In this document: positions 692 to 61,126 of the stretch, piece by piece | Numbering within the stretch: position 1 is the stretch's first letter | Layout of the letters: every line of letters starts with the position of its first letter | DNA from: Paenibacillus lutimineralis | Lineage (GTDB): Bacteria > Bacillota > Bacilli > Paenibacillales > Paenibacillaceae | Length of the DNA stretch: 64,000 bases | Reading direction: 5' to 3' | Assembly: GCF_003991425.1 (NCBI RefSeq) | Contig: NZ_CP034346.1 | Span: forward strand, 3,261,501-3,325,500 | The notes under the pieces: model-generated | Databases searched by the model: none | What the model saw: the letters and a program-made list of their open reading frames with translations, nothing else | Told to the model about the DNA's origin: nothing | Position numbers and translations under genes: made by a program

Positions 692-782
692 GGCTAACGA
701 TATAAGTTCTTGTCCCGAGCTGAGGACAAGAACTTATATCGTTAGCCGAAATGGACAAGAACTTGTATTCATAAGATTAGAT
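692..782 (+). repeat. transposon-end-like element, subfamily A, lacking its terminal site
   Basis: Positions 692-715 and 724-747 are perfect 24-base inverted arms around an 8-base loop, each arm holding the core GTTCTTGTCC or its complement. A further direct core (GGACAAGAACTTGTATTC) and the tail GATTAGAT follow. Compared with the copy at 1108-1256, the terminal TGTCGG site and the hairpin are missing. Downstream bases to about 830 (ending near CCCTGTACGG) recur after the copies at 21919 and 27792, so the inner region of the element was once longer. Confidence 0.75.
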
Positions 783-1107
783 AATTGGATCTTGGATCCC
801 AATAGGGACCCTGTACGGAATTACATGATTTCTTTAGGATGTGAGGCACAGTGCAAACTCGAAACAACGCAACAGGAGAGAGAAGTGATCTCCAATTTAT
901 TACCTCGAGCATTCTGATCTTCTCCAGAATAAGTCTGATCTTGTACGAAAGGTCCTGCAGGAGGCCAGCTCATCTACATACGGCTTTGCATTCCTTTGAG
1001 AATGAAACGGCAGGAGAGGTCGGCTCATTAGAATCTGCTAATTGTAAAGTAATACTGACATTGATTTTGATTATTTTATTAACTGCTTTCAAAGAAAGTA
1101 GATATCA
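783..1107. other. inner remnant of subfamily A element and unassigned sequence
   Basis: The first about 45 bases repeat sequence found after other subfamily A copies. An open frame at 851-1195 runs into the next repeat copy, has no recognisable domain and no good ribosome binding site, so it is not called. Confidence 0.35.
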
Positions 1108-1256
1108 TGTCGGAGGACAAGAACATATACGCTTAAGGAGTCGCGGAAATCGCGGCTTTTTTGTTTTAACGATACAAGTTCTTGTCCCAAGCTGAGGACA
1201 AGAACTTGTATCGTTAGCCGAAATGGACAAGAACATAGTCCTATTACCGATTAGAT
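1108..1256 (+). repeat. transposon-end-like element, subfamily A, complete
   Basis: The element starts TGTCGGAGGACAAGAACATA. A hairpin with a T-rich 3' side (AGTCGCGG/CGCGGCTTTTTTG) follows, then two long inverted arms each carrying GGACAAGAACTTGTATCG or its complement, then a direct core GGACAAGAACATAGTCC and the tail CCGATTAGAT. The order terminal site, hairpin, inverted pair, inner site is the same in every complete copy of subfamilies A and B. Confidence 0.8.
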
Positions 1257-1438
1257 AAGAATTAAACTACATTTCACTGCATTAGTTCATTAAGCTAACG
1301 GGCAGGATAGATGAATTTTGTGAATATACTTCAGGTATGCGAACGATAAAAAAATAAGTTTAACTTTTAAGATTAAAGACGTGCTACAGTCTTCAGAGTT
1401 CACTGAATTCGTTAAAGGAAGTACGATCGCAGAAAAAA

Positions 1439-1468
1439 GAGGTCGAACCAGTAAGTTCTGGTGACCTC
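1439..1468 (-). terminator. stem-loop, probable terminator for the minus-strand metX-like gene
   Basis: GAGGTC and GACCTC pair, with an inner ACCAG/CTGGT stem. The A-run just before it becomes a T-run on the minus strand, as expected for termination of transcription from the gene at 1568-2587. Confidence 0.5.
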
Positions 1469-1567
1469 AAATCCGATCGGTTAGGTTATGAATTCATGAG
1501 AGATATAACCGGGCTAAAGAACAGGGAATCTTGCTAGGCCTGACAGACATCCAATGCAAGTGACGAT

Positions 1568-2587
1568 CTATTCTTTAGTGCTAAGTGACAACAAGTGTTT
1601 TAGATTGTCATCAATAAATTGATTATCGGCACTGTTGATTCCACGACCGGCAAAATGGCCCCAGATCGATTGGATTGGTTTCAAGACAGCATTAGGTATA
1701 CGCTTAGCTTCGTATTCATTATCGTCCGCTGTGCAGAAGAGATCCGTGCTTCCCGGCATGATACAGGCAAGAGCTTTTATACTCTGAAGTGCTTTATCAA
1801 AGTCTCCGTTATAGGAGGGGTTTGCACTGATATTTGCATGTTGGCCTGTCCATAACATTGCCAGAACATTATGAGGATCCATATTCATAAAGCTATCTTC
1901 CCAGACACCAGCTACAAAATCCTCCAATGTGTCAAATCCCATCTCACGGTAAAGCTCTTCTCTATAAAACGCATGTGATAGTCCCCATCCTGCATACACC
2001 CGACCAACGGCACGCATGTCTGTAGAACTTAGTTGGTTTAATTTACTTGAGTCGAAGCCGACTGCAGATAGCAGTGAAGCTTTTACACCTTCCAGCACTA
2101 CATATGTGTGAGGCCAAGTTTTGGCGATGCCTCCGAAAGGTGCGATTCGTTCGACCATCTCCGGGTAACTTGCCCCCCATTGAAATGCCTGAATGCCGCC
2201 CATCGACCACCCGACGACGAGAGCAATCTTTTGAATACCGAATTTTTCGGTCAGCAGTTGGTGCTGGAATCGAACGTTATCATAGATGGTTACCTGTGGA
2301 AAGTTAGCCCGATCAAATGGAGGAGGCGTGTTACTGGGAGAGGAAGATAGCCCATTGCCCAGCAAATTGGGAACGATAATAAAATATTTCTCTGGATCGA
2401 GTGCCATCCCGCTGCCAATGAGCCATTCATTCTGAACATGCTGATCCCCAAAAGCCGTTGGATAGACAATAACATTATCCTTCTGTTCATTTAATTTTCC
2501 GTATGTTTTATAAGCAAGAAAAGCAATTGGTAACGTCACTCCTGATTGTAAGAGTACATCACCCAAATTAAAAATTTCATAGTCCAT
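1568..2587 (-). CDS. MetX-like alpha/beta hydrolase (homoserine O-acetyltransferase family)
   Basis: The predicted 339-residue cytoplasmic protein has the MetX-type fold. It shows an N-terminal region with YPTAFGDQHVQNEW, the nucleophile elbow GWSMGG, and a C-terminal GHFAGRG that supplies the catalytic His. The length is slightly short for MetX (360-380). Members of this family transfer acetyl or succinyl groups to homoserine, but many paralogues of this shorter type act as general hydrolases, so the substrate is not assigned. The start MDYEIFNLG is preferred over one 33 bases upstream because GAAGGGAG lies about nine bases before it. The gene is divergent from a LysR-type regulator, the usual arrangement for a regulator and its target. 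No other methionine genes are adjacent. Confidence 0.75.
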   Translation of the reverse strand: MDYEIFNLGDVLLQSGVTLPIAFLAYKTYGKLNEQKDNVIVYPTAFGDQHVQNEWLIGSGMALDPEKYFIIVPNLLGNGLSSSPSNTPPPFDRANFPQVTIYDNVRFQHQLLTEKFGIQKIALVVGWSMGGIQAFQWGASYPEMVERIAPFGGIAKTWPHTYVVLEGVKASLLSAVGFDSSKLNQLSSTDMRAVGRVYAGWGLSHAFYREELYREMGFDTLEDFVAGVWEDSFMNMDPHNVLAMLWTGQHANISANPSYNGDFDKALQSIKALACIMPGSTDLFCTADDNEYEAKRIPNAVLKPIQSIWGHFAGRGINSADNQFIDDNLKHLLSLSTKE

Positions 2588-2731: not shown

Positions 2732-3666
2732 ATGGAATTGCGTCAACTGAATACGTTTTGTACGGTTGCAACAACATTGAATTTCACGCGGGCAGCAGAA
2801 GTGCTGAGCTACGTTCCTTCCAACGTCACGATGCAAATTAAGCATTGGAAGATGAGCTAGGTGTTCGCCTCTTTGATCGGTTGGGCAAGCAACTCGCGCT
2901 CACAACTGCGGGTAAACGCTTTTTAACACACGCCCAAGGCGTTCTTGAAAAAATGGACGAAGCTCGTAGTGCTGTCCATGATAATGAAAAACTAAGTGGT
3001 ACCTTAACGATAAGTGCGAATGAGGTTATTTGCTCCTACCGGCTTCCACCTGTCTTCCAACGGTTTCGTTCGCAGCATCCGGGAGTTCGTCTAATCTTCC
3101 GCTCAGTTCCGAATCAAGAGCTCAAGCAAACGCTCTTTGAGGGAACCACGGATATTGTTTATATGTTGGATGAACCCATTCGCTCGAGTGGACTTTCCGT
3201 GGAACCTTTGCTGGAAGAACATTTCCGATTGTTAGCTGCTCCAGATCACCCACTCGCCAAACGAACTGTGCTTCAGTTGGAAGATTTTCACGGAGAAGTA
3301 TTCCTGACGAATGAAAAGGGTTGTCCTTATCGAACTATGTTTGATCGATCATTTGAGAAAGAGGGCATTGATAGCATTACATATTTAGAGTTTCAAAGTG
3401 CTGAAGCCATTAAACAATGTGCAATTTCAGGAATCGGTATTGCCTTTCTTCCTGAGATCGTCGCGGAATCCGAAGTTGAACGCGGAGAACTTGTTGTCCT
3501 CCCATGGCAAATTCCGGACTTGCAGGTATATACACAGATGTTGTGGCATAAAGACAAGTGGCTTTCACCAATCATGTTATCTTTCATAGAAGCAACCAGC
3601 GCAGTTTTTGGTTCACAGTATGAGAAACTAGTTTTTCCGACCAAGGGCAAGAACTTAACTCCATAG
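2732..3666 (+). pseudogene. LysR-family transcriptional regulator, frameshifted in the helix-turn-helix
   Basis: Translation from ATG 2732 (preceded by GAAGGGGGA) reads MELRQLNTFCTVATTLNFTRAAEVL, a clear LysR helix-turn-helix. The frame stops at 2858-2860. One missing base near 2842 would restore the family sequence QIKALEDELGVRLFDR, and the rest continues in the -1 frame to 3666 with an intact substrate-binding domain. The full product would be about 311 residues, close to family size. The gene is therefore either a recent pseudogene or carries a sequencing error. The last codons (PTKGKNLTP) are derived from a degenerate repeat element overlapping the 3' end. It is divergent from the metX-like gene and probably regulated it. 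Confidence 0.75.
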
Positions 3667-3707
3667 CTGAAAAGGTTAAGAACATGGACCAATGTCGATT
3701 AGAATGT
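3639..3707 (+). repeat. degenerate subfamily A transposon-end-like element
   Basis: GGGCAAGAAC followed by TAAGAACATGGACC and GTCGATTAGA aligns with the compact copy at 16799-16866, which has cores at the same spacing and the tail GATTAGAT. The element forms the 3' end of the LysR gene. Divergence suggests an old insertion. Confidence 0.45.
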
Positions 3708-3867
3708 TAATCTGTTTCGTTAAGCTAACGGGTAACGATAGTTCAATAACATCGTGGAGGCTGCCGAGGCGTTGAACTAACGGACAGATATGGAAAATTT
3801 GGACTAAAAATAACGTGATTGTTATGCTAAGATAAAGCAAGTGTGTTTTGAGAAGGGAATACAATAA

Positions 3868-16798: not shown

Positions 16799-16866
16799 TG
16801 TCGAGGGACAAGAACATGTACCGATTACCGTAATGGACAAGAACATAGTCCGATTACCGATTAGAT
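16799..16866 (+). repeat. compact subfamily A transposon-end-like element abutting csoR
   Basis: TGTCGAGGGACAAGAACATG starts at the first base after the csoR stop. A second direct core, GGACAAGAACATAGTCC, and the tail CCGATTAGAT follow. The hairpin and inverted pair found in longer copies are absent. The degenerate copy at 3639-3707 has the same compact layout and also sits at a gene 3' end. Confidence 0.75.
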
Positions 16867-16922
16867 GAATAATCCCAATGCTACTTCATTAAGCTAACGG
16901 GAAGGATGACGTAACTAACGAA

Positions 16923-20617: not shown

Positions 20618-21933
20618 GCCTTTCTTTTGTGCTTTTACGCTTTGCCATCGTTATGCTTTGCTGTATGCTGTTATGTTGCCTGGTATGGTATTTCGTCATG
20701 GTGCGGTTTCAAAATACTGGCGTTACTTACCAGGGAGCCGTCTCCAACCAACAGGTGGAGCAAATGCTGGCCGGAGAGCCAACAACCTTCGTTTCTCCTG
20801 GTGATGATTTTCTGGCTGAATACGCTTTGTTTGGCCGGAACGGCGAAGTGTTGGAAAGCAACGTAGAGGGAAAGAAGCTGGAAGCCCTGGCCGGGTGTTT
20901 ACAGGAGGACGCCAGCAGCATAGATGTATTGCGGCACACCTACGCGGATGGAAGCACCGTAATCCTTCGCTGGCATTTCAGGGCGGAGTTTGTCAATCCT
21001 GTGCTGCGCGACATGCTTCCCCCCGCAGAATACCTGGGGCTGGCTATGCTTGTTGTGGCATTGTTGCTTTGTCTACTGTTCAACACCCTGTGGCTTCGTC
21101 GGCGCCTCGCCGCCAAGCTGAAGCTGTTCAGCGAGGTGAGCAAGAAGGTAGGCGCGCAGGAGCTGGATTTCACAATTCCCCACGCCGGCATACGGGAGTA
21201 CGATCAGGCGCTCGATGCTATGGAGCATATGCGGGAGGCATTGTACAGATCCCTGTCATCCCAATGGGAGGCACAGCAAGAACGCGAAGCAGAAATGGCA
21301 GCACTCGCGCATGATTTAAAAACCCCACTCACCCTGGTGGGAGGCAACGCCGAGCTTCTGCTGGATGAAGAACTGCCTGAGAGCAGCCGCAAAATGGTGG
21401 AAACCATTGTGGTAAGCAACGACCGGGCCAAGCAGTATGTTGCCGGCCTGTTAGAAACCTCCACCGGTGCGAATGAGGCATTTGAAAACACCTGCCTGAC
21501 CACCATGTTTGATGAGCTTTGCCAGAGCACAATAGCTATTGCAGAAGCCAAGAGAGTTTGCCTGCAAACCCAAAACGGCCTGAAGGGTGCTGCGAGCATT
21601 CAGAAAGATCATTTACTTCGCGCCCTCGGTAATGTGGTGCAGAATGCCATCGAGCATACACCGGCGGGGGGAAACGTGTATTTGGAAAGCAGCATGATAG
21701 ATGGCGGCTGGCAAGTTACTGTATGTGATGAAGGCCCCGGTTTTAGCAAGGCGGCGTTACACCATGCGACAGAGCGTCTATGGCGCGGAGATGCAGCGCG
21801 TGGCGCCGATGGACACAATGGCCTTGGCCTTTGGTTTGCAGCACAAGTAGCTAAAACGCACGGAGGACAACTAGAACTGCGCAACTGCGATTCTGGTGGG
21901 GTGGTTATAATGAAGTTCTGCAAGAACTTGTAA
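20593..21933 (+). CDS. sensor histidine kinase of the LanFEG locus, 3' end replaced by a repeat
   Basis: The 446-residue kinase has an N-terminal helix, an extracytoplasmic loop, a second helix near 145-165, and the dimerisation box MAALAHDLKTPLTLV. The ATPase domain has NVVQNAIEHT, DEGPGF and NGLGLWFAAQ. The ATG at 20593 (MAKRQRSVS) overlaps the regulator gene by 25 bases. An upstream start at 20575 is possible. The last residues, CKNL, are encoded by a transposon-end-like repeat that joins the coding sequence at about 21919. Only a few C-terminal residues are likely lost, so the kinase may still work. Confidence 0.8.
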   Translation: MAKRQRSVSLSFVLLRFAIVMLCCMLLCCLVWYFVMVRFQNTGVTYQGAVSNQQVEQMLAGEPTTFVSPGDDFLAEYALFGRNGEVLESNVEGKKLEALAGCLQEDASSIDVLRHTYADGSTVILRWHFRAEFVNPVLRDMLPPAEYLGLAMLVVALLLCLLFNTLWLRRRLAAKLKLFSEVSKKVGAQELDFTIPHAGIREYDQALDAMEHMREALYRSLSSQWEAQQEREAEMAALAHDLKTPLTLVGGNAELLLDEELPESSRKMVETIVVSNDRAKQYVAGLLETSTGANEAFENTCLTTMFDELCQSTIAIAEAKRVCLQTQNGLKGAASIQKDHLLRALGNVVQNAIEHTPAGGNVYLESSMIDGGWQVTVCDEGPGFSKAALHHATERLWRGDAARGADGHNGLGLWFAAQVAKTHGGQLELRNCDSGGVVIMKFCKNL

Positions 21934-21978
21934 CGTTAGCCGAAATGGACAAGAACTTGTATTCATAGCCGATTAGAT
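21919..21978 (+). repeat. subfamily A transposon-end-like element, 5' truncated
   Basis: It begins inside the third site (CAAGAACTTG) and continues with GTTAGCCGAAATGG, a direct core ACAAGAACTTGTATTCA and the tail GCCGATTAGAT. The following about 40 bases also match the sequence after the 27792 copy. The terminal part has been replaced by the kinase gene. Confidence 0.7.
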
Positions 21979-22119
21979 TATTGTATCACAATATAAGAAG
22001 CCAAAACCTGTACGGGAATTAGATGATTGCGTTCTTTTTGGTTTTTTACTGTCTCAGCCAACATTGGAATTTTAACTCATGGATAGCTAAGGGGAACAGC
22101 CTATCGACCAGGGAAGAAT

Positions 22120-22140
22120 TGTCACAGGACAAGAACTTAG
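22120..22140 (+). repeat. type C terminal site
   Basis: TGTCACAGGACAAGAACTTA has the TGTC start and GACAAGAAC core but a different first variable part from subfamilies A and B. No hairpin or inverted pair follows. The region 22141-22432 shows no gene. Confidence 0.45.
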
Positions 22141-27791: not shown

Positions 27792-27940
27792 TGTCGGAGG
27801 ACAAGAACATATACGCTTAAGTAGTCGCGGAAATCGCGGCTTTTTTGTTTTAACGATATAAGTTCTTGTCCCAAGCTGAAGACAAGAACTTATATCGTTA
27901 GCCGAAATGGACAAGAACTTGTATTCATAGCCGATTAGAT
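27792..27940 (+). repeat. transposon-end-like element, subfamily A, complete, left of an inverted pair
   Basis: TGTCGGAGGACAAGAACATA begins it. A CGCGG/CGCGGC hairpin with T-run follows, then the long inverted arms with AAGTTCTTGTC and GACAAGAACTT, the inner direct core and the tail CCGATTAGAT. It faces the reverse-oriented copy at 36102-36250 across 8.4 kb. Five bases outside each terminus (TATGC, TCTTG) do not match, so no target duplication is seen. Confidence 0.8.
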
Positions 27941-28251
27941 AATTGGATCCCAATACAAGAAGCCAGGACCCTGTACGGAATTTTGTAATTTTAAATCTAT
28001 ACTCTGTATGGGCTTACTGGATTGCTATAACGTATCCCTCTGACTCTCTGTGTGTTGACATTAGATATGGAATATTAAATAGAACTTGGCGAAATGTATG
28101 AATTGGTCTGTATTCACAACAAAAAATGTTGGATATCGAATATTCGTTGCACTTAGCTCCCTACCTTCTAGCGCTTGCTCTATCGCCCCCTTTTCTATGC
28201 ACCTCTATAGACTTTATGAAATGGATCATCGGTATGGGCTATAAGAAATGA
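27941..28251. other. no gene recognised
   Basis: The first about 45 bases repeat the inner sequence seen after the copies at 692 and 21919. The rest is low-complexity sequence without a credible frame. Confidence 0.4.
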
Positions 28252-28410
28252 AGAGAAAATAGTGCCTTACCTGCAACGTTTGTGGATGGAGAATTACTTT
28301 GTAAAGGGAAATATCCAACAAATGAGCAATTTTCACATTGGTCAGGACTTTCAGAGGAAGAACTATTACAAAAGCCGAAAGTACGCTTGTCACTAAAAGG
28401 AGATGCCTAA
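28252..28410 (+). pseudogene. arsD: ArsD C-terminal remnant
   Basis: The frame ending at TAA 28408-28410 reads ALPATFVDGELLCKGKYPTN and then EQFSHWSGLSEEEL. This is the C-terminal part of ArsD, the metallochaperone that hands As(III) to ArsA. The N-terminal half with the CysCys sites is missing, with an in-frame stop at 28249. It lies two bases before the arsA fragment, the normal order arsD-arsA. Confidence 0.75.
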
Positions 28411-28411
28411 A

Positions 28412-28522
28412 ATGGAACGCTTTACAAGAAGTCATTTCCCTGACACCCCGTTCCTGTTTTTTACGGGGAAGGGGGGCGTAGGAAAAACATCTGTTGCTTG
28501 TAGCCTATCAATAGCCATCTAA
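28412..28522 (+). pseudogene. arsA: ArsA N-terminal remnant
   Basis: ATG 28412 starts MERFTRSHFPDTPFLFFTGK, continuing GGVGKTSVACSLSIAI and stopping at 28520-28522. This is the deviant Walker A of the arsenite-pump ATPase ArsA. Only 36 of about 580 residues remain. Sequence after the stop is AT-rich and non-coding to the next promoter at 28756. Confidence 0.8.
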
Positions 28523-28755
28523 ACAATTTAGTGACTACAAAAATAAATTCGTATGTATCTTCCAAAAAAACATATTTGTTTTCTTTTTAAAAATATATGA
28601 ACCTAGCGTTAAAACACAAGTGAAAAATTGCAAGCCATCCAAAACAGTTTTGGGGTTCAGTTCAACTTTGTTCAAAATGAGATTAATTTTTAGCAGTAAA
28701 ATCAATTAAAGTATAGCTTTTTTGATCAATTTTTTTATTAAACTAAAAAAAATAC

Positions 28756-31371: not shown

Positions 31372-31517
31372 TGTCGGGTGACAAGAACATAGTAACATTA
31401 GAAGCCGCTAATTATGCGGCTTTTTATTTTTATGATATCAAGTTCTTGTCAAAACACAATGACAAGAACTTGATATCATTCCCGACTGATGACAAGAACT
31501 TTGTTACATTCCCGATA
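31372..31517 (+). repeat. transposon-end-like element, subfamily B, complete
   Basis: It starts TGTCGGGTGACAAGAACATA. A hairpin with T-run follows (AGCCGC/GCGGCTTTTTA), then perfect 20-base arms ATGATATCAAGTTCTTGTCA and its complement around AAACACAA, an inner direct core GATGACAAGAACTTTG and the tail CATTCCCGATA. The architecture equals subfamily A, but the bases around each GACAAGAAC core differ. The hairpin at about 31404-31425 could terminate the fusion-gene transcript. Confidence 0.8.
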
Positions 31518-31643
31518 GGTGAATTTCTGTGTAGTTAATACGGTAGCTGTAATGGTTCTAGAATACAAACACATTAGAGACTATGAGCTGCTTCCAAACT
31601 GGCAAGACATTCTTCACTCAGATATATAGTGTTAAGAAACCAA

Positions 31644-32390
31644 TCATTCATTTTCTTTATTCAGCAATTGCTCTGCATAGATAATACAACGTTCTGCAAA
31701 TTCCAGTGATTGATCTGTTATAGGATACAGTCCAGTTGTCTCTGACGGCATTTTTCTTACTTCCCAAAACTTATTCATTAACTCTTCATTTCCATCAAAT
31801 GTATCATTGGAAACTGCAATCAACTCACAACCAATCTGATAGCCAGCTTCAGATTCAGGTAATATGCTATGCTGCTGACACCATTCAATTCTCCGTAATA
31901 GTGAAATATATTGTTGGGTGATTCGGTCGCTTTTACTAAGACTAGGAAGCACTTGTTCTAAAAAATCCTTCTCGTCATCTTCAAAATACTCAATCCATTT
32001 TTTCGAATTATGTTTGGCTGTCTGTACTAAATGTGAAATTCGTTTCCACGATAATTCTCCCTCAAGATCAAACATGTTGATGAGCGAGGTCGTATTGGAG
32101 ATGCTAGTTTGGAGCGAAGAAAGTTGTTCTTGAAGATGATTATAGTGAGCTTTTAGTATTTCTCGGTAGGATAGCTTATCCAATAAATTCTGAATCTCTT
32201 CGAGTGGAAGCATGAGAGATTTTAGAAGTGTGATCTTTTCCAAAGTAAACAAGTTTTCTTCGGAATAGCAACGGCGTCCGCTTTCGTCCTTAAAGCTAGG
32301 TGTAAGGAGCCCAATTTGATCATAATAGCGAAGTGTTCTTAAAGAAACATTGCTTTGTTTGGATACTTGTCCTGTTGTCCAATGACTCAT
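31644..32390 (-). CDS. MerR-family transcriptional activator (TipA-like C-terminal domain)
   Basis: The 248-residue regulator has the MerR winged helix (TTGQVSKQSNVSLRTLRYYD followed by QIGLLTPSF) and a coiled-coil dimer helix. Its helical C-terminal domain of about 130 residues resembles the TipAS drug-binding type (NKFWEVRKMPSETTGLYP). GGAGG lies six bases before ATG 32390. It is divergent from a CPBP protease gene, and the gap holds a typical MerR promoter with a 19-bp spacer. It probably activates that gene in response to a small hydrophobic ligand. Confidence 0.85.
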   Translation of the reverse strand: MSHWTTGQVSKQSNVSLRTLRYYDQIGLLTPSFKDESGRRCYSEENLFTLEKITLLKSLMLPLEEIQNLLDKLSYREILKAHYNHLQEQLSSLQTSISNTTSLINMFDLEGELSWKRISHLVQTAKHNSKKWIEYFEDDEKDFLEQVLPSLSKSDRITQQYISLLRRIEWCQQHSILPESEAGYQIGCELIAVSNDTFDGNEELMNKFWEVRKMPSETTGLYPITDQSLEFAERCIIYAEQLLNKENE

Positions 32391-32412
32391 GATATTCCTC
32401 CAAAAAAAATGC

Positions 32413-32443
32413 TTGCAGGTGACGTAGCGTCACCCAATATATT
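32413..32443 (+). promoter_or_regulatory. MerR-type promoter with 19-bp spacer
   Basis: -35 TTGCAG (32413-32418) and -10 TATATT (32438-32443) are 19 bp apart. Between them lies the palindrome GGTGACGTAGCGTCACC (32418-32434). MerR activators untwist such over-long spacers. It drives the CPBP gene, and the operator could also repress merR. Confidence 0.8.
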
Positions 32444-32476
32444 TGAATTATATCACAGAGACAAAGGGGTAAGGGA

Positions 32477-33181
32477 ATGACTGATCACTTAACGCATTGG
32501 AAACAAAGGGATAATTGGACATGGAAAGAGTTTGTAGCTTTGCTGTTGCTAGAGTTTGTATTTGTTATCGGAATTATTAAATTTGTAGTAAAACCCGTAT
32601 ATGCGCAATGGCTTGGAGATGAGCTGTATTCAGGAACATTGACAGGGCTTACAATAGCAATAGTATTAATGCTGGGAGTGTATTTCATAGGGCTACGTCC
32701 TAAAAAGCTTTCTTGGAGTGAAGTGGGTTTAAGATCCTTTCCTGCGAAGGATTGGTGGCGAATTCTGTTATGGACGTTCTTGCTGATTATAGGCAGCACC
32801 ATCGTAATGATCCTTACCAGCTATATCGGCAATACATTTGAAAATTCTAAGACGGAATCAATTCAGCAGAATGTTACGGTCTTCAGTGTATTCATTGCGT
32901 TTGCATCAGCAGTGATCATCTCGCCTATATACGAAGAGATATTCTATCGCGGTTTTATCTATCGCTGGCTGCGAACCCGATTAGGCAGTGGTTGGGCAAT
33001 GTTTTTGAGTGCGAGTCTCTTTACGATAGTCCATATTCCTACCTATAACGCGATGCCTGCGAATTTTCTTGGGGGGATCATATTTGCATGGGCGTATGAA
33101 CGAACAAATTCTGTTTGGCCTGCAGTATGGGTACATGGCTTAACAAATGGACTATTTTTATTATTGACTCTGGTAATGTAA
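32477..33181 (+). CDS. CPBP-family intramembrane metalloprotease
   Basis: The 234-residue membrane protein has six to seven hydrophobic segments and the glutamic CAAX-protease (Abi/CPBP) motifs: YEEIFYRGFIYR (motif 1, EExxxR), FTIVHIPTY (motif 2 His) and the last helix WVHGLTNGLF (motif 3). Members cleave membrane substrates and include bacteriocin self-immunity proteins. CAAAGGGGTAAGGG precedes ATG 32477. It is probably under the divergent MerR regulator. The substrate is unknown. Confidence 0.85.
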   Translation: MTDHLTHWKQRDNWTWKEFVALLLLEFVFVIGIIKFVVKPVYAQWLGDELYSGTLTGLTIAIVLMLGVYFIGLRPKKLSWSEVGLRSFPAKDWWRILLWTFLLIIGSTIVMILTSYIGNTFENSKTESIQQNVTVFSVFIAFASAVIISPIYEEIFYRGFIYRWLRTRLGSGWAMFLSASLFTIVHIPTYNAMPANFLGGIIFAWAYERTNSVWPAVWVHGLTNGLFLLLTLVM

Positions 33182-33302
33182 CGGGAGAAAGAAAAAGAGT
33201 TACCTAATTCGTAAACAAGCACTTTGAGGCAATGACGACAAATGAGACGGGACTCATCACATGGCTAGTAGAGTTTAGGATTAGAAGAGATGAATTATAA
33301 GT

Positions 33303-33327
33303 GGGGCTGCCATTTGGTAGCCCTTTT
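33303..33327 (+). terminator. rho-independent-type terminator
   Basis: GGGCTGCC pairs with GGTAGCCC and is followed by TTTTT. It ends the CPBP transcript. Confidence 0.7.
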
Positions 33328-33352
33328 TGCTCGGTTTTGAACTTGGATTAAA

Positions 33353-33855
33353 ATGAGTAAGGCAGGATTTCCTTCATTAAAAAAAGCGTTTTATAATCAC
33401 AAACTTTGTATTTTTATGGAAAAACCTAATATAACTGATAAATATATAAAAGGAGTATTAATTGAACCGGGAGACCAAGGATATTTAAAGGGTAAAAACG
33501 AACAAAATACTTTTATAGTTGATTTTTCTAACGATTTGAATTGCATTATAGGGGGGAGAGGTACAGGAAAAAGTACTATATTAAATATATTAGAAGTTAT
33601 CTTCACATTAGAATCTCATTCCTATGATAATTTGAGATTTTTATGTAAAAATGAATATATTATAGTGAATTTTGTTTGTATAGAATATTTGTTGAAATTT
33701 ATACCACAAGTAAAAAACATGGTAATTATGAGCGTGAGGATTTTTTTGAAGATAGAGCATTTAAAGAGGTAAACCATAATACAGGTCATTATGTTTTACA
33801 AACGCATTGGAATATTATTTATAGAATAGCTCTTTCGGTAAATTATATAGAATAG
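33353..33855 (+). pseudogene. fragment of a PHP/AAA ATPase (TrlF-like)
   Basis: The frame gives SKAGFPSLKKAFYNHKLCIF, then KNEQNTFIVDFSNDLNCIIG and the Walker A GGRGTGKSTILNILE. This resembles the junction between a PHP domain and the AAA ATPase of TrlF-like proteins, which would normally run to about 900 residues. After about residue 122 the frame is lost. In the next frame, HGNYEREDFFEDRAFKEVNH continues to a TAG at 33853-33855. No start with a good ribosome binding site is seen. Some members of this ATPase group occur in defence islands. Confidence 0.5.
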
Positions 33856-34022
33856 ACTACCGGCGAGTACGAAACTATCTGGATGGATGCCCTTTATACA
33901 TATGTACAAAATACGAGTTTTGTGAATATGTCTAAAGTAAAGAGGTCCTGAAATTACTAAATCACCAAATGGCTCTTTTTTTACTCCTCTTTGTTTTTTT
34001 TGAGTAAACGTCCATCCTTGGA

Positions 34023-34268
34023 TTATAAGATTTCATTTTTTCGAATTTCATTCTTCATTCTCTTAGAACTATTATTACATACCAGACCGATTGGTAGCTC
34101 ACTTCTGGTATTCTTATAGTAGACTTGAGCTATATCAATCTTCTTTCCTAGATCAGCATCTAACTTGAAGATTATCGATGGCAAACTCAACTCAATCATT
34201 TCATCAATCTGTTTCCATTTTGGTGCAACAGCAAGTCTTACCCCTTCTTCTATTATATTTCTTAGAAT
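34023..34268 (-). pseudogene. C-terminal remnant of an unidentified protein
   Basis: The minus-strand frame reads LRNIIEEGVRLAVAPKWKQI, then DEMIELSLPSIIFKLDADLG and VYYKNTRSELPIGLVCNN, and stops at 34023-34025. An in-frame stop lies just before it and there is no start codon. The coding quality is good but the family is not recognised. Confidence 0.35.
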
Positions 34269-34319
34269 TTAAGGTGATACCTTTATTTACCAATTTATTA
34301 GATGATTTTTTAGAAATGC

Positions 34320-34356
34320 AAAAATAACCTCTTAAGGGCAAGACCCAAAGAGGTTA
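34320..34356 (-). terminator. rho-independent-type terminator of the XRE-DUF2975 operon
   Basis: AACCTCTT pairs with AAGAGGTT. On the minus strand the stem is followed by ATTTTTGC. Confidence 0.7.
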
Positions 34357-34376
34357 AATAAATTTGTTGTCTGTTT

Positions 34377-34595
34377 TTATTGAGTGTCTTCGTCACCTTC
34401 GTACTCCAAAATATCACCTGGCTGACAATCCAAAGTCTTACATATCGCTTCTAATGTTGAAAAACGAACCGCTTTTGCTTTCCCATTTTTCAGAATAGAA
34501 AGATTCGCCATAGTAATTCCAACCCTTTCCGAAAGCTCCGTTACGCTCATTTTTCGTTTTGCTAACATCACATCAATATTAATAATAATTGCCAT
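34377..34595 (-). CDS. YozG-like XRE-family helix-turn-helix regulator
   Basis: The 72-residue protein is almost only a helix-turn-helix: VMLAKRKMSVTELSERVGIT, then NLSILKNGKAKAVRFSTLEA and CQPGDILEYEG. This is the YozG/YvaO-like small Xre type that usually pairs with a DUF2975 membrane protein, as here. ATG 34595 is chosen because GAGGTG is six bases before it. An ATG nine bases upstream is too close. It is 10 bases after the DUF2975 stop, so both form one operon. Confidence 0.85.
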   Translation of the reverse strand: MAIIINIDVMLAKRKMSVTELSERVGITMANLSILKNGKAKAVRFSTLEAICKTLDCQPGDILEYEGDEDTQ

Positions 34596-34605
34596 ATCAT
34601 ACACC

Positions 34606-35091
34606 TCAGACCGTCAAATCATTTTCTGATTTTATATTAATCGCTTCTTGTAGAAGTCGTTGGAGGATAGCAGTAAAAACGGCGATAATCAACGAAGCAA
34701 AAATGATGATGAGTCCCATTATTCCAAGAGGAGGGTCAACTTTATTTGCTATAAAATGGAAGAGGGGCAAACCTAATACATACAAACCACTGATTATAAT
34801 CGCACAGTACTTTATGTTCTTTAACCCCTTTACAGATAATTCCGAGAACGCTGTGTTCTCGTCAATGTACCGTAAAAGATTAAAAGCCTGATAGAGAGCA
34901 AAGTAAAAAGGCACAGCCGATCCATACATCACGATGAAAATGAGATATTTCATTGGGGAAATATTTGGATACAATTTTGATGCGAAATTCGCCATATGGG
35001 GTACTAAAAATATACATAAAGCAAGAACTGCAATTCCAGCCAGAAAAATAATTACCTTTAAGAAAGTTGTTGAACCTCGTTTAACATTCAT
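34606..35091 (-). CDS. DUF2975 four-helix membrane protein
   Basis: The 161-residue protein has four hydrophobic segments (FLKVIIFLAGIAVLALCIFL, LIFIVMYGSAVPFYFALYQ, AIIISGLYVLGLPLFHFIA and GLIIIFASLIIAVFTAIL) and the DUF2975 motif LLRYIDENTAFSELSVKGLK. The C-terminal tail contains LQEAIN(I)KSENDLTV as usual. GAGGTG is six bases before ATG 35091. Pairing with an Xre regulator suggests that the membrane protein modulates the regulator, though its role is unknown. Confidence 0.85.
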   Translation of the reverse strand: MNVKRGSTTFLKVIIFLAGIAVLALCIFLVPHMANFASKLYPNISPMKYLIFIVMYGSAVPFYFALYQAFNLLRYIDENTAFSELSVKGLKNIKYCAIIISGLYVLGLPLFHFIANKVDPPLGIMGLIIIFASLIIAVFTAILQRLLQEAINIKSENDLTV

Positions 35092-35349
35092 ATGAAGCAC
35101 CTCACTTATTTAATAACATTATAAATTTAACACGTTATTTATCGTTTTGCAATAAATCTGTATTGTTTTTAATTATATTATTATTGTTATTTATATATCC
35201 TTTTAATTTTGACATTCATTAGAATATTCACAATAAAAACTCGACCTATAACTAATGGATCGAGTTATAAATTTGTTTTTATTTATTCGACTTTCATTCA
35301 TTTATATAGTTGAATTTCAGTACCCGACTTTGTTATCATTCGACAGATT

Positions 35350-35391
35350 ATCTAATCGGCTATGAATACAAGTTCTTGTCCATTTCGGCTA
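35350..35391 (-). repeat. subfamily A transposon-end-like element, inner site only
   Basis: The reverse orientation tail ATCTAATCGGC and the core ATACAAGTTCTTGTCCATTT are present, up to TTCGGCT. The terminal side has been replaced by the tetR coding sequence that follows. Confidence 0.65.
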
Positions 35392-35870
35392 GAGAAACCC
35401 TATAACAAAATTTCTATCAGGGACATTTGTAAAAGAGCCGATTTATCTCGTCAGACCTTTTATAATTGTTTCAATGAAAAAGATGATATTCTTCGATTCT
35501 GCCTGAAACAGGGTTTTAATGCCCTGTCACAGGAACTGGCTGCTAAAAAAAGCCTCCAAATGAGGGATATCACTGATAGCTTTTCTGCAATTTTTTTGGA
35601 AAATGAAGTTTTACTACAACTTATGTTAGAGCATCACCTTGAAAATATCATAGCTGATGAGCTATCTGCTTCTTTATCTACCTTTGCTTCTAAATGCACA
35701 ACCGACACAAAAAATACATATATACGATTGCTTTTTTTTCTGGTGCTCTAACACACATACTATTTTGCTGGCTTAAAGATCCTCAACGAATTTCCTCAGA
35801 AGAATTATCAGAGTTACTACTAGAAATTTTTTCTGGGAATTACTATAAGCTAGACTTAACTTATTCATAA
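35362..35870 (+). pseudogene. TetR/AcrR-family regulator, 5' replaced by a repeat and 3' frameshifted
   Basis: The open frame starts inside the repeat; its first about 10 residues (MNTSSCPFRL) are repeat-derived. From about residue 11 it is a TetR-family protein, with PYNKISIRDICKRADLSRQT and FYNCFNEKDDILRF. The first helix is lost. Near 35740 a run of eight T shifts the frame: the annotated frame ends LLFFLVL, while the next frame continues SGALTHILFCWLKDPQRISS and ends LDLTYS at 35870. Seven T would restore a normal C terminus. The gene is dead. Confidence 0.8.
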
Positions 35871-35874
35871 AAAG

Positions 35875-35922
35875 AAAAATCAAGTGGATACTCGCTTGAG
35901 ATAAATTCCGCTTGATTTCTTT
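35875..35922 (+). terminator. rho-independent-type terminator
   Basis: AAATCAAG and CTTGATTT pair around a 25-base loop, with T-rich flanks. It follows the tetR remnant. Confidence 0.6.
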
Positions 35923-36101
35923 ACCTAAATTTTAATCTCTATTTATTATTGTTTTTCAGTGCTATTATTTGCTATTCGCTTCAATAGTCCCTCAAGCCTC
36001 AATACTTTTCTTTATAGAGTATGATTTTCTTTATTGCACCAGGCAACCCAGCAATATTTATATGGTAAGAATAATTTATCGAGATTAATTTTCTACTTTC
36101 T

Positions 36102-36250
36102 ATATAATCGTCTTTGGATACAAGTTCTTGTCCATTTCGGCTAACGATATAAGTTCTTGTCCTCAGCCCGGGACAAGAACTTATATCGTTAAAACAAAAA
36201 AGCCGCGATTTTCGCGACTCCTTAAGCGTATATGTTCTTGTCCTCCGACA
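36102..36250 (-). repeat. transposon-end-like element, subfamily A, complete, right of an inverted pair
   Basis: On the minus strand it starts TGTCGGAGGACAAGAACATA at 36250 and shows the hairpin, the inverted arms and the inner site like the copy at 27792, with about 95% similarity by eye. Its inner tail (ATATAATCG) has diverged. Confidence 0.8.
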
Positions 36251-36463
36251 TCTTGGCGATAACTCCCGGAAAAAATAGGCTTCAAAAATACCTCGCTCCT
36301 TCTCGGTCAAGCAGCGCAGCATTTCGCGGAAGGTTTCAAAAACTTCACTTCTAGCGATAACCTCCGCGGGATCGAGACCGATGTTTCGATGCTTGTAGTC
36401 AACCTTTTGACTCAGTCTCGCTAGCAGTTCGTCTACCTGTCCACCCGGCTCCCTCTCTCCCAC
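36251..36463 (-). pseudogene. truncated sigma-factor-like or regulator fragment
   Basis: From GTG 36463 the minus strand reads GEREPGGQVDELLARLSQKV and EVFETFREMLRCLTEKERGI followed by FEAYFFRELSP, which looks like the region before a sigma-70 region 4 helix-turn-helix. It is cut exactly at the TGTCGG terminus of the neighbouring element, and the frame then runs on through repeat sequence. Identification is tentative. Confidence 0.4.
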
Positions 36464-36482
36464 TATGTTCTTGTCCTGTGAT
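36464..36482 (-). repeat. type C terminal site
   Basis: On the minus strand TATCACAGGACAAGAACAT, close to the type C sites at 22120 and 42555, with the first bases degraded. Confidence 0.4.
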
Positions 36483-36603
36483 AAGAATAGTGGTCAAAAC
36501 ACAATGGGGTGTGCGCTGCGTAAACTTCTGTTCTAATGGATGCTGGAAGAGGGCTTCACAAAAATAAATATAGTAACAGATGCTTTTGCAGACTGGAATG
36601 AAA

Positions 36604-36678
36604 TAGAACTTTATATCATAAAAATAAAAGCTGCATAATACGTGGCCTTAAATGATACTATGTTACTGTCTCCCGACA
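36604..36678 (-). repeat. degenerate subfamily B element
   Basis: The minus strand starts TGTCGGGAGACAGTAACATA and shows a decayed hairpin and TATGATATAAAGTTC. The inner half is missing. Confidence 0.5.
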
Positions 36679-36681
36679 TCG

Positions 36682-36720
36682 ATGCCGGCAGCCGCGTCTT
36701 AGTTGTTTATTAAACTATAG
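36682..36720. repeat. 39-bp repeat, copy 1
   Basis: ATGCCGGCAGCCGCGTCTTA plus the following AGTTGTTTATTAAACTATAG recur at 40957-40995 with five differences. Each copy lies at the 3' side of a minus-strand gene. The inner part TTAGTTGTTTATTAAACTA is a dyad. Confidence 0.55.
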
Positions 36721-36764
36721 TTCTCCGTTAGTTTATTATCCTACACCAGTCATAGATATTAATA

Positions 36765-37163
36765 TTACTTAATTCGTTCTTCTGTTTCTCTAGCTAACAT
36801 CCATTTTCTATTAATTAATTGCCAATTTTCAATAGTAAATAATCTTGCTATTATTTTTTCATCTTTTTCAATGATTAGTTCATAAAATACGACAGCATTT
36901 TGAGTATCCTTTAAGCGAATAACCCTATTTTCGAATTTCTTTTTGGCCCCTAAAAGCTGTGTAACGGATTGTTGCATTCCGGTTACTGCATCATTTTGGT
37001 TAAATATCATCGGCTTTTCTTTTATACCATTAAAAAACGCTACATAGTAATCTTCAGTCATTCTTTCTAATGAAGAGGTGTCTCCTGAAATCATCGCCTC
37101 ATTCCAATCCGTGATGAAATCATCGTGCATTTTTGTAAAATTAATTAATTGATCATCCAACAT
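36765..37163 (-). CDS. NTF2-like (DUF4440/SnoaL-type) protein
   Basis: The 132-residue cytoplasmic protein has the cone-like NTF2 pattern: an N-terminal helix pair (FTKMHDDFITDWNEAMISGD, TSSLERMTEDYYVAFFNG), and strands ending FYELIIEKDEKIIARLFTIE and NWQLINRKWMLARE. Such proteins are small enzymes or ligand-binding domains. AAAGGGGG lies before ATG 37163. It is a single gene between repeat elements. No catalytic residues stand out. Confidence 0.65.
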   Translation of the reverse strand: MLDDQLINFTKMHDDFITDWNEAMISGDTSSLERMTEDYYVAFFNGIKEKPMIFNQNDAVTGMQQSVTQLLGAKKKFENRVIRLKDTQNAVVFYELIIEKDEKIIARLFTIENWQLINRKWMLARETEERIK

Positions 37164-37435
37164 TTTAATTTTACCCCCTTTATATTAACTCTCAGTGTCC
37201 AATTTATTATTCTACATTTTCTTGACTCTTTCCTTCCTGTTGTTGTACATAGCCATTAATTATATTTTCGGAAATTTTATAAGCAATTTAGCAAGACATT
37301 TCGAATTAGTCAAATTAATTATATGAGCACTCCTGCCCTTTTAATGGAGTCGATATCCATTTAAATTTAAACTAACCTACCCGTTAGTTTAACAAAAATG
37401 GCATCTTTTCAACTTTCCTGCTGCCGATGAGATCA

Positions 37436-37580
37436 TATCGGGAATGTAACAAAGTTCTTGTCATCAGTCGGGAATGATATCAAGTTGTTGTCATCGTGTT
37501 TTGACAAGAACTTGATATCATAAAAATAAAAACCGCATAATCAGCGGCTTCTAATGTTACTATGTTTTTGTCACCCGACA
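37436..37580 (-). repeat. transposon-end-like element, subfamily B, complete
   Basis: The minus strand begins TGTCGGGTGACAAAAACATA at 37580 and has the hairpin, the inverted arms and the inner site of subfamily B. About 65 bases beyond the inner tail (from 37373, containing TACCCGTTAGTTTAAC) are shared with the copy at 56826. It abuts a truncated phosphotransferase gene. Confidence 0.8.
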
Positions 37581-37616
37581 ACCATAGAACTTTTATTACT
37601 ATGAAGTTTTCTTATA

Positions 37617-37934
37617 TTACCCTTGAACTAATGCATATTCAAAAGAGAAGTTAGTTTTACTTAGATCCATATGATATAGCTTAGGTACACTGATATTATA
37701 AGAAGTCAACAAATCATAATTTTTCTTAAACAAATATGCACTGTTTGATGTAAAAACTTCTTTTGTATGTAAGTTTTTAAAATAACTTAAGGAATCATCC
37801 CATATGTATAATACGCATGTGAATTGGTCTGAACACTCTACTCTATAAGTTCCCTTCTGTGCTCCTCCTAGAATCCTTGTAAGAGAATTTATCTGATATT
37901 CCTTCTTAAATACCATTTTTAATATCTTTTGCAT
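37617..37934 (-). pseudogene. aminoglycoside phosphotransferase-like protein, N-terminal fragment
   Basis: The 105-residue frame contains ILGGAQKGTYRVECSDQFTC and LYIWDDSLSYF, followed by LLTSYNISVPKLYHMD and EYALVQG. This is the N lobe of an APH/choline-kinase-like phosphotransferase. The C lobe with HGD and DxD motifs is missing. The subfamily B element starts 36 bases after the stop. The 5' end also looks damaged: a better start (MEQCLMSKKRYAKD) lies in another frame upstream. Confidence 0.65.
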
Positions 37935-38063
37935 ATCTTTTTTTACTCATTAAACATTGTTCCATAACATATCTCCCATCATCATAATTCTACAGCAATT
38001 AAATTATACTTTATCCCCAAAAAAAATATAGACTTTTAATACAGACTGTAGTTTCATGTAGAT

Positions 38064-41831: not shown

Positions 41832-42149
41832 GAAATGAGCTCCTTTGTTTAAAAGTTAATAATAACCATATTTTAGCAACGTTTAACTCGAAAGCCAATA
41901 TTGGAAGAGGTTCTATTTTCTTATGTAAAACATGAGTTAAATCAACTGAGCTAAAGACATAGGCAACAACACATATGACAAATAATTTCGCATATCACGG
42001 AGTGCGGTTATCATTATATGCAAAATAAAGTACAAAGACCTTTCTTTTTAACTGACGCAACCTAGAGTTGATGGATATTCATGATGAATTGCACAACTGG
42101 CTTCTTCCTCCAACATTCCTAACGCTATTCCGACAGAATGTAGGCACTT

Positions 42150-42203
42150 AAAAAGCCGCATAATTGGCGGCTTCTAATGTAACTATGTTTTTGTCACCCG
42201 ACA
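42150..42203 (-). repeat. subfamily B element, terminal site and hairpin only
   Basis: The minus strand begins TGTCGGGTGACAAAAACATA at 42203 and ends after the GCCGCC/GGCGGC hairpin. The inverted pair and the inner site have been lost. Confidence 0.7.
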
Positions 42204-42512: not shown

Positions 42513-42554
42513 AAACCTTATCGTAACTATTGAGCTTTGTTAACCCTACTTTTA

Positions 42555-42592
42555 ATCAATCGGCAATGAGACTATGTTCTTGTCCTATGACA
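42555..42592 (-). repeat. type C terminal site
   Basis: On the minus strand TGTCATAGGACAAGAACATA begins at 42592, followed by GTCTCATTGCCGATTGAT. The tail CCGATT recalls the inner tail of subfamily A, so this may be a compact form like that at 16799. Confidence 0.55.
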
Positions 42593-42781
42593 TATTCCTT
42601 TTAATGCTTGTCCCCGCATACGAACCCTCATAGATGAACGCCCTTCTTCTTGGATTTCAGAACGTTTGAACAAAATAGGCTATAAACATCTTTTCCATGC
42701 GTAAAGTGCGATACTTTGTTCAATTCGCATTTTACTACGATCAGGATACTGATATGTACGATGCCCCGACAAACCATTTAT

Positions 42782-45997: not shown

Positions 45998-46151
45998 GAT
46001 TCTATAATCCTCCTTAAATTTCTCTTCTGGCTGCCGACCTGATTCCAAGTATAAAACCTCCTGTTAGAGGAGAATCAACAGTTATTTATTCGATGAATGA
46101 GGAATCAGCAAAGCAGCGGAAGAGAAATTATTTAACTACACAAAACTTCAT

Positions 46152-46298
46152 CTATCGGGAATGTAACAAAGTTCTTGTCATCAGTCGGGAATGATATCAA
46201 TTTCTTGTCATTGTGTTTTGACAAGAAATTGATATCATAAAAATAAAAAGCCGCTTAATTAGCGGCTTCTAATGTTACTATGTTTTTGTCACCTGACA
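46152..46298 (-). repeat. transposon-end-like element, subfamily B, complete
   Basis: The minus strand starts TGTCAGGTGACAAAAACATA at 46298 with the hairpin, the inverted arms (here with AAATTTCTTGTC-type changes made symmetrically on both arms) and the inner core. The matched changes in both arms suggest that the pairing of the arms is under selection. No gene lies in 46299-46519. Confidence 0.75.
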
Positions 46299-56709: not shown

Positions 56710-56825
56710 TCACGAACTTCGTAAATAATTCCATATGTAGGGTATTCGTGAAACTTTTGAACTATCCTACCCGTTAGTTTAACAAAAATGGCATTTTTTC
56801 AACTTGCCTGCTGCCTATGAGATCC

Positions 56826-56941
56826 TATCGGGAATGTTACAAAGTTCTTGTCATCGTGTTTTGACAAGAACTTGATATCATAAAAATAAAAAAGCCGCAT
56901 AATTAGCGGCTTCTAATGTTACTATGTTTATGTCACCCGAC
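56826..56941 (-). repeat. transposon-end-like element, subfamily B, one site deleted
   Basis: On the minus strand it starts at 56941 with GTCGGGTGACATAAACATAG (the first T mutated), has the hairpin and the inverted arms, but the inner arm is merged with the inner site. Flanking bases 56758-56825 match those at 37373-37435. Confidence 0.75.
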
Positions 56942-58931: not shown

Positions 58932-59075
58932 GAGGACAAAAAGTATTTTTCTGCGGTGAACTGCGTATTAGTATGGTGAGTCATTGCATAGAATCCATTC
59001 GATCGAATCAACCATGAAAAATAAGCCCGCCGCTCTTTGCAAGCGGCGGGCTTCCTGCTCTTCTAAAGTCTATGT

Positions 59076-60425
59076 TTACGGCTGTAGCTGCCAGAGGGCA
59101 GGCACGTTGGCTGGCTCCCAACCCGGCAAGGATGTATGGGCCTGGATGCATTTGTACACCTTGCCGTTATAGGATACGAGCGTATTGACCGCATAGGCGG
59201 TATTTGACACCCATGGCGTTGCACTCGGACCTTTAGGCGTTGACACCGTCACGGCATTGCTGTCACCAGATTCGTTGTTCGACGGGTCGTAAGCGCGGAC
59301 CGTAATCGTATATTGCGAATCCGGAGACAATCCGGTAACCTCCTTCTCGGTTGCCGTTCCAGTGACGGTAGCGATCACCGTGTTGCCGTTGTAAATCCGG
59401 TAGCCAGCGATGCCGGAAGCATCTGTGGATGCATTCCACATCAACGTGACAGACGTCGACGTCGGGGTGCCCATCACATGCAGGCCGGTCGGATTGGTTG
59501 GCGGCGTCACGTCAACCGGAAGCTGCGTAGTCGTAAACTGGACACTATTGCTGAGCGGCGATCGATTGCCGGAACCATCGAACGCCTTCACAGCTAGGTT
59601 ATAAGTCGTGCCTGCCAATAGATTGGTGAGATTGGCGCTCGTCTGATTGGCAGGTACAGTTGCGATGACATTGACGCCGTTGTACACCTCATAACCCATG
59701 ACGGCCTTGTTGTCCGTCGAGGCCCCCCAAGTCAGCGTGGCTGTCGTTGTGCCAACATTGCTGACGGACAAATTAGTCGGCGCCGTAGGTGCAATGTTGT
59801 CGCCAGGACCGAATTGGGCATCAATGACGATGTACCAGGCATTTTGGGTATCCGCGATATCCCACACGCCGAGGATGACATGGTAACCCTCTCTTTGCGG
59901 CACGTTGCAGGTTTGGGTTAACGTGGCCGGCGGCTGCTGGCCATTTCCGTTAATCGTGCAGAACGGAGTCAGATCAAACTGGTCGCGGGTCAACGGTGCA
60001 TTGGGATTCCAATCCGGCTTGGTGATGAAATAACGGTAGCTTGTCGTGGCATGACGAGCGGTAAAAATCCAAGTAAAGTTGTTGGTGCCGCTCGTCATGT
60101 TCACCTTGTTCCAGCGCGTAGCTGATTGCTGGTCAAGCGGAGCGAAGCTGGCAAGGCCGGCGCTAGCGATTTTGCCGTCAGGTGGTCCCGCATTAGGGAA
60201 ACCTTTCGGCCCCTCCAGGCTCTGAGGCTCATAGACGATCGAGCCGCAGTTGGTATTCAATCCGTTTTTACACTGGATCGCGCGGCTGGCCGGATCATTA
60301 ATATATCCGTGGGCTGATACGGTCTTCGAGATCGCGAACATACAAGCGAATATGAGCAGCAATCCGCCGCCAATCAGCATTAATCGCAGGATAAAGCGGG
60401 AATCTAAACGGGTTTGAAACATCAT
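59076..60425 (-). CDS. AA10 lytic polysaccharide monooxygenase with two FnIII and a chitin-binding domain
   Basis: The 449-residue secreted enzyme cleaves crystalline chitin by copper-dependent oxidation. A signal peptide ends at TVSA, leaving the mature N-terminal His ([10 protein letters not shown]), the first ligand of the copper histidine brace. The second His is in [13 protein letters not shown]. The AA10 domain runs to about residue 205 ([18 protein letters not shown]). Two fibronectin type III domains (about 210-300 and 310-395) and a C-terminal CBM5/12 ([20 protein letters not shown], ending [14 protein letters not shown]) follow. ATG 60425 fits GGGAGGT. A cre-like site lies upstream. 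Confidence 0.9.
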
Positions 60426-60679
60426 CACATTACCTCCCATGATTTGGTTTGGTCATGATATGCCTTTTGTTTTTCGACAACATCTTTAACGCGATCTTTT
60501 AAGCTGCCTCCTCTCTTGAATATGATACTTCCAACGTTAACGTGCGGGCATCGCTCCTTTTTAAGCCGATTTATACAAACTCCTTAGAGCTTATATACTC
60601 GTACAAACTCATGAAAAACAATACCTAATCACATTGTGAGAAGTGTCAACAAGTAGGTTGGAAATATCCATGGGAAGGG

Positions 60680-60695
60680 GGGTAAGCGCTTTCAA
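60680..60695 (-). promoter_or_regulatory. cre-like catabolite control site
   Basis: GGTAAGCGCTTTCA is close to the CcpA consensus TGWAAGCGNTNNCA. It lies about 255 bases upstream of the LPMO start. Repression by preferred sugars would be usual for chitin genes. Confidence 0.4.
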
Positions 60696-61087
60696 ATCTG
60701 CTATCCTATATAGAATCAGCTTTGTAATCTGCTGATGAATGCTGACATTCATAGCTCGCATCTATTATGTTGGGAACAAAACCAAGTAAGTAGCCTAAGG
60801 GTAAAGCGTAGGGGGGATTGGAATCATGTCTCAATATGAGGGATCTATATAGATAGGCATAATAGAGTTGTGTCACAATTGGAGTCTGTTAGCGAAGTGT
60901 CATGAAGCTAAGAGAAGTTGATGTACGGGTCAGAAAGAACAAAAAATATATATAGTAAGTGGATGTATATATTATTAAATAACAACCATTTCTTGTCAAG
61001 TTTTATTATAAACTGGCACTCACCTTTAAACGATTTTCCCTCTGAACAATAAGACTTTAATAGTACCATTTTATTTGTTATGCAGGT
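60696..61087. other. no gene recognised
   Basis: The stretch has many stops in all frames and no repeat copy, apart from the short element that follows. Confidence 0.4.
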
Positions 61088-61126
61088 ATCTAATCGGATA
61101 TAAATACAAGTTCTTGTCCTCCGACA
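61088..61126 (-). repeat. minimal subfamily A element
   Basis: The minus strand reads TGTCGGAGGACAAGAACTTG and then directly the inner tail TATCCGATTAGAT. The terminal site is fused to the inner tail, consistent with deletion between two cores. Confidence 0.65.

Follow-up and report, generated by a model that had tools for sequence, protein, structure and literature searches.

What are the short, palindrome-bearing repeats that lie dispersed over 64,000 nucleotides of the Paenibacillus lutimineralis genome (contig NZ_CP034346.1, positions 3,261,501 to 3,325,500; this whole stretch is called the window below), and what governs their orientation? The initial annotation had read them as ends of a TnsB/TniA-type transposon. 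We propose that they are, with good probability, the tnsA-side ('L') ends of Tn7-like transposons of Paenibacillaceae, which would be targeted to the replication terminus, oriented by replication and mobilised in trans. The transposon-end reading is supported by precise boundaries at TGTC, by 5-bp target duplications and by the geometry of a complete tnsABC-tniQ element of another species (genome G182). To it we add clustering at the terminus, a polarity with a single strand switch, and a conserved hairpin, termed H, after many of the copies.

The repeats are built on the core sequence GACAAGAAC, which occurs 32 times exactly in the window against 0.38 occurrences expected, a count reached in no shuffle. 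A profile made from 46 full elements, taken from this genome and from other contigs, mostly of Paenibacillus, gave 31 matches in the window, corresponding to 16 distinct copies and 15 opposite-strand matches that overlap those copies. An element consists of TGTC, four bases and site 1, followed by a hairpin with a T-run, by sites 2 and 3, which form a perfect inverted repeat with 10 bp between them, and by the direct site 4; counted from TGTC, the sites start at 9 (+), 71 (-), 90 (+) and 119/120 (+). These positions confirm the arrangement described initially (terminal TGTC site, hairpin and T-run, palindromic site pair, inner direct site), which had been ascribed to at least fourteen copies: membership of the family extends to 16, but the complete layout, with all four sites at no more than one mismatch, is found in six, the other copies being truncated. 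Two subfamilies, A and B, are told apart by the bases adjoining the core. Complete family A elements lie at 1108-1305 and 27792-27950 on the plus strand and at 36091-36250 on the minus strand; complete family B elements lie at 31372-31538 (the final plus-strand copy), and on the minus strand at 37377-37580 and 46142-46298. When the copies of the genome were compared pairwise, homology mostly started, among the matches listed, at TGTC or a few bases off.

The strands of these copies are strictly ordered. All seven profile copies left of 31.5 kb are on the plus strand and all nine right of 35.3 kb on the minus strand, with a single switch in between. The GC skew changes from +0.128 (30001-34000) to -0.147 (34001-38000), and since it flips between the plus and the minus copies, the interval 31539-35341, which holds both switches, is the presumed replication terminus. 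Polarity with respect to the replichore thus holds for 16 of 16 copies. In the complete genome (6.50 Mb, one contig), 36 profile matches (expectation value E ≤0.001) were resolved by eye into 27 distinct elements, eight mirror matches and one right end. As many as 25 of the 27 elements lie within 3,163,940-3,350,090, where the 17 up to 3,293,027 are all on the plus strand and the eight from 3,296,843 onward are all on the minus strand; at this point the sign of the skew is reversed as well. Five more complete genomes (G186, G182, G139, G115 and G185), picked for their several copies, were treated in the same manner by comparing matches at E ≤1e-9 with the skew of the fetched stretches. In each of them either the skew flip coincides with the strand switch, or every copy lies on one side of the flip and has the expected strand. 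In the six complete Paenibacillaceae genomes taken together, the replichore orientation is found in 76 of 77 copies; for five of the 77, which lie far from the flip, the replichore was assigned by coordinates. Within 400 kb, a Bacillus-type dif consensus was matched at best with 6 mismatches.

The family occurs in variable number. Six other genomes searched of the same genus have one to six matches each, so that the copy number in the genus ranges from 1 to 27 (with mirror matches removed for the window's genome). When public genomes were scanned for the palindrome, at least 120 stretches came up, and among the 80 listed nearly all are from Paenibacillus or relatives. Elements with GACAAGAAC also occur in seven records of large Paenibacillus plasmids, at 32 places (including NZ_CP043762.1 and NZ_CP145893.1), and in two related plasmid stretches 15 of 15 copies are on the strand of positive skew. 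The family B element had no match in 50,697 phage records.

Evidence for mobility comes from relatives that lack a given copy. Element-free sites were sought for each element separately, because one 20-kb terminus stretch of G025 is not collinear in five relatives. To this end, for each of 179 terminator-bearing elements, the 1.2 kb upstream was matched against the remaining fetched stretches. For 14 elements, an element-free relative was found whose homology ends within 12 bp of TGTC, and in eight of these it ends 0-1 bp from TGTC; one of them, in G090, runs into another element within 20 bp. One element, in P. xylanexedens (L078:1870), occupies the end of a xerS-like recombinase gene, whose homologue in L133 is identified as XerS by NCBIfam; homologues of this gene are present in five of 120 element loci. 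When the upstream flanks of 138 elements were compared with each other, 30 pairs matched, and several of these represent ends of other elements. A comparison of G060 with G038 gave no alignment at the cut-off applied. With non-collinear termini and element-free relatives at hand, the copies are not always syntenic between species; constant synteny would have pointed away from transposition.

For two insertions both junctions were found, each with a 5-bp duplication, as had been anticipated. The G025 insert measures 10,624 bp and has CAACC on either side, with an empty site in G283, G210 and G264; its three long open reading frames (ORFs) encode one peptide synthetase and two ABC transporters. 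The G285 insert of about 20.8 kb has GAAAC on either side, with imperfect similarity reaching 12-13 bp, and an empty site in G038. Both inserts have 9.4 kb in common at 96% identity, at different locations and with different end points, and the G285 insert carries one additional direct terminal site near its right end. In G283, a segment with homology to the right-hand tail of the G025 insert sits directly before another element, which would fit, in this one case, segments that are delimited by the next L end. A short ORF of about 14 codons adjoining an element (G283:C7:42697-42782) is similar to that tail.

The link to Tn7-like transposition comes from G182, where tnsA, tnsB, tnsC, tniQ and cargo are enclosed by inverted TGTCCAATGACACAAA ends in a complete 10,672-bp element. 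It has TGTC ends, is flanked by AATGA twice as a 5-bp duplication, and is found some 20 kb away from the G182 skew flip, in the same orientation as the other elements. One of its ends has sites at 9, 73 (inverted) and 91, compared with 9, 71 (inverted) and 90 in the GACAAGAAC elements, and the inverted pair is again 10 bp apart; its core is GACACAAA. The two kinds of element therefore have a common end geometry. Full elements around TnsB, TnsC and TniQ, as predicted initially, do exist with this architecture and the GACACAAA core, but none was found with the GACAAGAAC core. A GACACAAA-type end of similar architecture occurs in the window's genome at 3,164,230-3,164,400 (L011:4230-4400), within the same terminus cluster, and in other species GACACAAA-type ends abut GACAAGAAC elements. 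Among 20 further pieces upstream of tnsA (about 1.3 kb beyond tnsA each), a G182-type end adjoins tnsA in one, from G066, and the GACAAGAAC palindrome is present in none. The G182 TnsB has no match in Pfam (E 0.01) or NCBIfam (E 0.001), so that negative family searches for the transposase carry little weight; compared by sequence, it does match solved chains of TnsB, e.g. 7svw at E 1e-7. A sliding-clamp motif in the G182 Tns proteins was considered and rejected: there is one QLDLL in TnsB, and by eye its Q is not kept in the TnsB of G001.

From these data the following course of events may be envisaged. A TnsB-type transposase would bind the four GACAAGAAC sites and cut at the terminal TGT, and insertion would yield the 5-bp target duplication, with a preference for the region where replication forks meet. 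A single orientation would result, the terminal TGTC on the origin side and the interior facing the terminus; some form of fork sensing would be involved. The terminator hairpin after site 1 could keep co-directional transcription out of the end complex. Most copies would be carriers of cargo or bare remnants without a transposase, mobilised in trans now or formerly.

Several observations weigh against this interpretation. In the loci and stretches examined, no GACAAGAAC element encloses or adjoins an intact transposase of its own, and because of this the cognate TnsB is one that we infer. Homologues of the G182 Tns proteins are absent from the 120 element loci (≤8 kb each) and from 400 kb of the window's genome, those of the G077 Tns proteins are absent from the same 120 loci, and 22 of the 23 tns loci examined, degenerate ones aside, hold no intact transposase with GACAAGAAC ends. 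In the portions that were read, the Tns operons of G077, G107 and G025 lack GACAAGAAC-type ends, and the tnsB on a P. rhizovicinus plasmid has no such ends in its stretch. PF09299 and PF06527 gave no match in the window's genome, a weak answer given that the PF09299 control matched nowhere. The tns genes seen beside such elements are all degenerate: a tnsB-tnsC-tniQ set in G001 that ends at an element, and a tnsC among elements on plasmid pY5S7-1. In G077, the distance from the Tns operon to an element cluster is about 5 kb. Relatives of the G001 tnsB occur in 36 of 295 genomes, one of them being the tnsB of the complete G182 element, and the window's genome has no match to it at E 1e-12. No TnsE was found among the Pfam matches of the eight genes of the G182 element, no dedicated TnsE search having been made. 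There is also one clear exception to the polarity, the copy at 2032260 of G182.

Right ends are scarce as well: nine candidates with two inverted tandem sites, about six of them convincing by eye, compare with 191 left-type ends, and no inverted second end is recognisable in the G025 or the G285 insert. The right end in the window's genome, at 3,249,713, is 4 bp from the next element. This shortage, together with the two insertions without a right end, suggests one-ended transposition. We put forward, as a tentative possibility, that in Paenibacillaceae Tn7-like machinery moves one-end segments, i.e. an L end with 10-20 kb of adjacent DNA, the right end being either arbitrary or determined by the following L, and inserts them with a 5-bp duplication into the terminus along the fork direction; the terminus region would then expand into an oriented array made up of captured gene clusters. 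In the Tn3 family, one-ended transposition gives one precise end, a variable other end and a 5-bp duplication. The ends described here are unrelated to those of Tn3, and the process is deduced from two insertions.

Other explanations of the repeats place the emphasis on replication or on transcription. The clustering at the skew flip and the nearly absolute polarity, converging on the terminus, would be expected of polar fork traps, in which a terminator protein at Ter-like sites lets forks in and not out, and in which the hairpin protects that protein, once bound, against transcription. In Tus-Ter and RTP fork traps, too, polar sites flank the terminus on both sides. However, the copies here are insertions with precise boundaries, two of them with 5-bp duplications; their number ranges from 1 to 27 in the genus, the terminus stretches lack collinearity among close relatives, some copies are hundreds of kb away from the terminus, and no terminator protein was identified. 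We therefore regard fork traps as improbable; a mixed form would be one in which the host has later put transposon ends to use. Single-stranded elements of the IS200/IS605 or REP type, entering the lagging-strand template and having the hairpins as their ends, would account for the hairpins inside the element and for H on its 3' side, and this class, too, favours termination sites and one orientation according to a review (PMC5371812). Against such elements stand the 5-bp duplications of the G025 and G285 insertions, the TnsB-like sites, repeated and arranged as in a tnsABC element, and the upstream bases listed, in which no common word is visible. The class is not known to make target duplications, and we consider it very unlikely here.

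The polarity might also be a mere consequence of gene strand, if the repeats served at gene ends as fixed terminators of transcription or as fixed protein-binding sequences. Several copies do lie just downstream of a co-directional gene and have a terminator-like hairpin inside. Yet 145 of 156 elements agree with the local skew, compared with 1045 of 1376 long ORFs (76%; binomial tail 2e-8), a test from which 39 further elements were dropped as their flanks were too short; of the 11 misses, at least one (G283 29048) mirrors another element. Moreover, the outlying copy at 2285632 of the window's genome lies between divergent genes, another copy interrupts the end of xerS, and element-free sites and duplications contradict fixed repeats, so that this explanation is hardly tenable. 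An integron or attC array, considered in view of the oriented repeats lying between genes, was discarded on the ground that these are insertions that have 5-bp duplications.

The Tn7-like interpretation can be placed among known systems. Tn7 ends in TGT with several transposase sites and makes a 5-bp duplication. With Tn7 and TnsE the elements have in common the multiple sites behind TGT, this duplication, the preference for the termination region and the single orientation; they differ in that no TnsE was seen in the G182 element, in the terminus clusters of many bare or cargo-bearing ends, in the long palindrome formed by two sites, and in the right ends that are mostly missing. With TnsABC-TniQ Tn7-like and CRISPR-associated transposons, the G182 element shares the gene set and the order tnsA-tnsB-tnsC-tniQ, and its TnsB matches solved TnsB chains, whereas here TnsB is invisible to Pfam and NCBIfam, the location is the terminus and not a fixed gene, and a palindromic site pair is present at the tnsA end. 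In the review cited above, preference of Tn7 for the termination region in one orientation relative to replication is attributed to TnsE, and terminus targeting with strict replication polarity is reported for Tn7 with TnsE and for IS200/IS608 (PMC5371812). A survey of Tn7 target selectors gives TnsE as a fork selector and never uses the word 'terminus' (PMC10293859), and the main text of one on Tn7-like cargo does not use it either (PMC8649781). As far as titles and the beginnings of abstracts in the open-licence PubMed Central (PMC) literature go, we found no description of such terminus-directed Paenibacillus elements, nothing joining Paenibacillus, Tn7-like and terminus, and no such system under Tn7 one-ended transposition or Tn7-like with nonribosomal peptide; Paenibacillus, transposon, replication terminus and orientation led to genome-editing work only.

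Hairpin H, TTAA[AG]CTAACGGGCAG, is conserved on the 3' side of many copies. In 57 element-H pairs of the fetched stretches, it lies at 158-191 bp from TGTC in 26 and at 48-412 bp in the others, and by itself it is polar, too: of the 29 matches found over 400 kb of the window's genome, 28 conform. In the window, H cores accompany the complete copies at 1108-1305 (core at 1290-1305) and 37377-37580 (37377-37392), a plus-strand two-site variant with terminal TGTC at 16799-16873 (16889), and a minus-strand family B element without site 4 at 56767-56941 (56767-56782). Elements of the IS110 family (Pfam) sit inside GCCCGTTAG, the core of H, in G087 (L253:940-2760) and G066 (L261:1165-2955), which makes H an apparent IS110 target.

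The remaining elements of the window are reduced. On the plus strand these are a truncated element with sites 2-4 and no terminal site (695-783), a degenerate element (3572-3708), a truncated element with sites 3-4 (21921-21992), and a single terminal site of TGTC and GACAAGAAC, without a profile match (22120-22136). On the minus strand they are the initial, truncated copy (35342-35398), a truncated and diverged family B element (36603-36678), a truncated family B element of site 1 and terminator (42148-42203), and two single-site variants (42547-42613, and 61090-61131 with terminal TGTCGG). These assignments come from the profile, from the site search for the single terminal site, and from both for the element at 695-783 and for the single-site and two-site variants. 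Downstream of the element at 27792, fragments resembling arsD and arsA of an arsenic operon were recognised by eye (28250-28530).

In many Paenibacillaceae a TnsABC-TniQ family without visible TnsE would thus mark the terminus by oriented copies, which number up to dozens, and these copies would be natural insertion maps for how a transposon senses meeting forks. The ends may mark the terminus by sequence in unfinished genomes. The distribution of the elements suggests a route along which the variable terminus region gathers peptide-synthetase clusters and other cargo, and one-ended capture, if true, would create an array like that of integron cassettes, but built by transposition.

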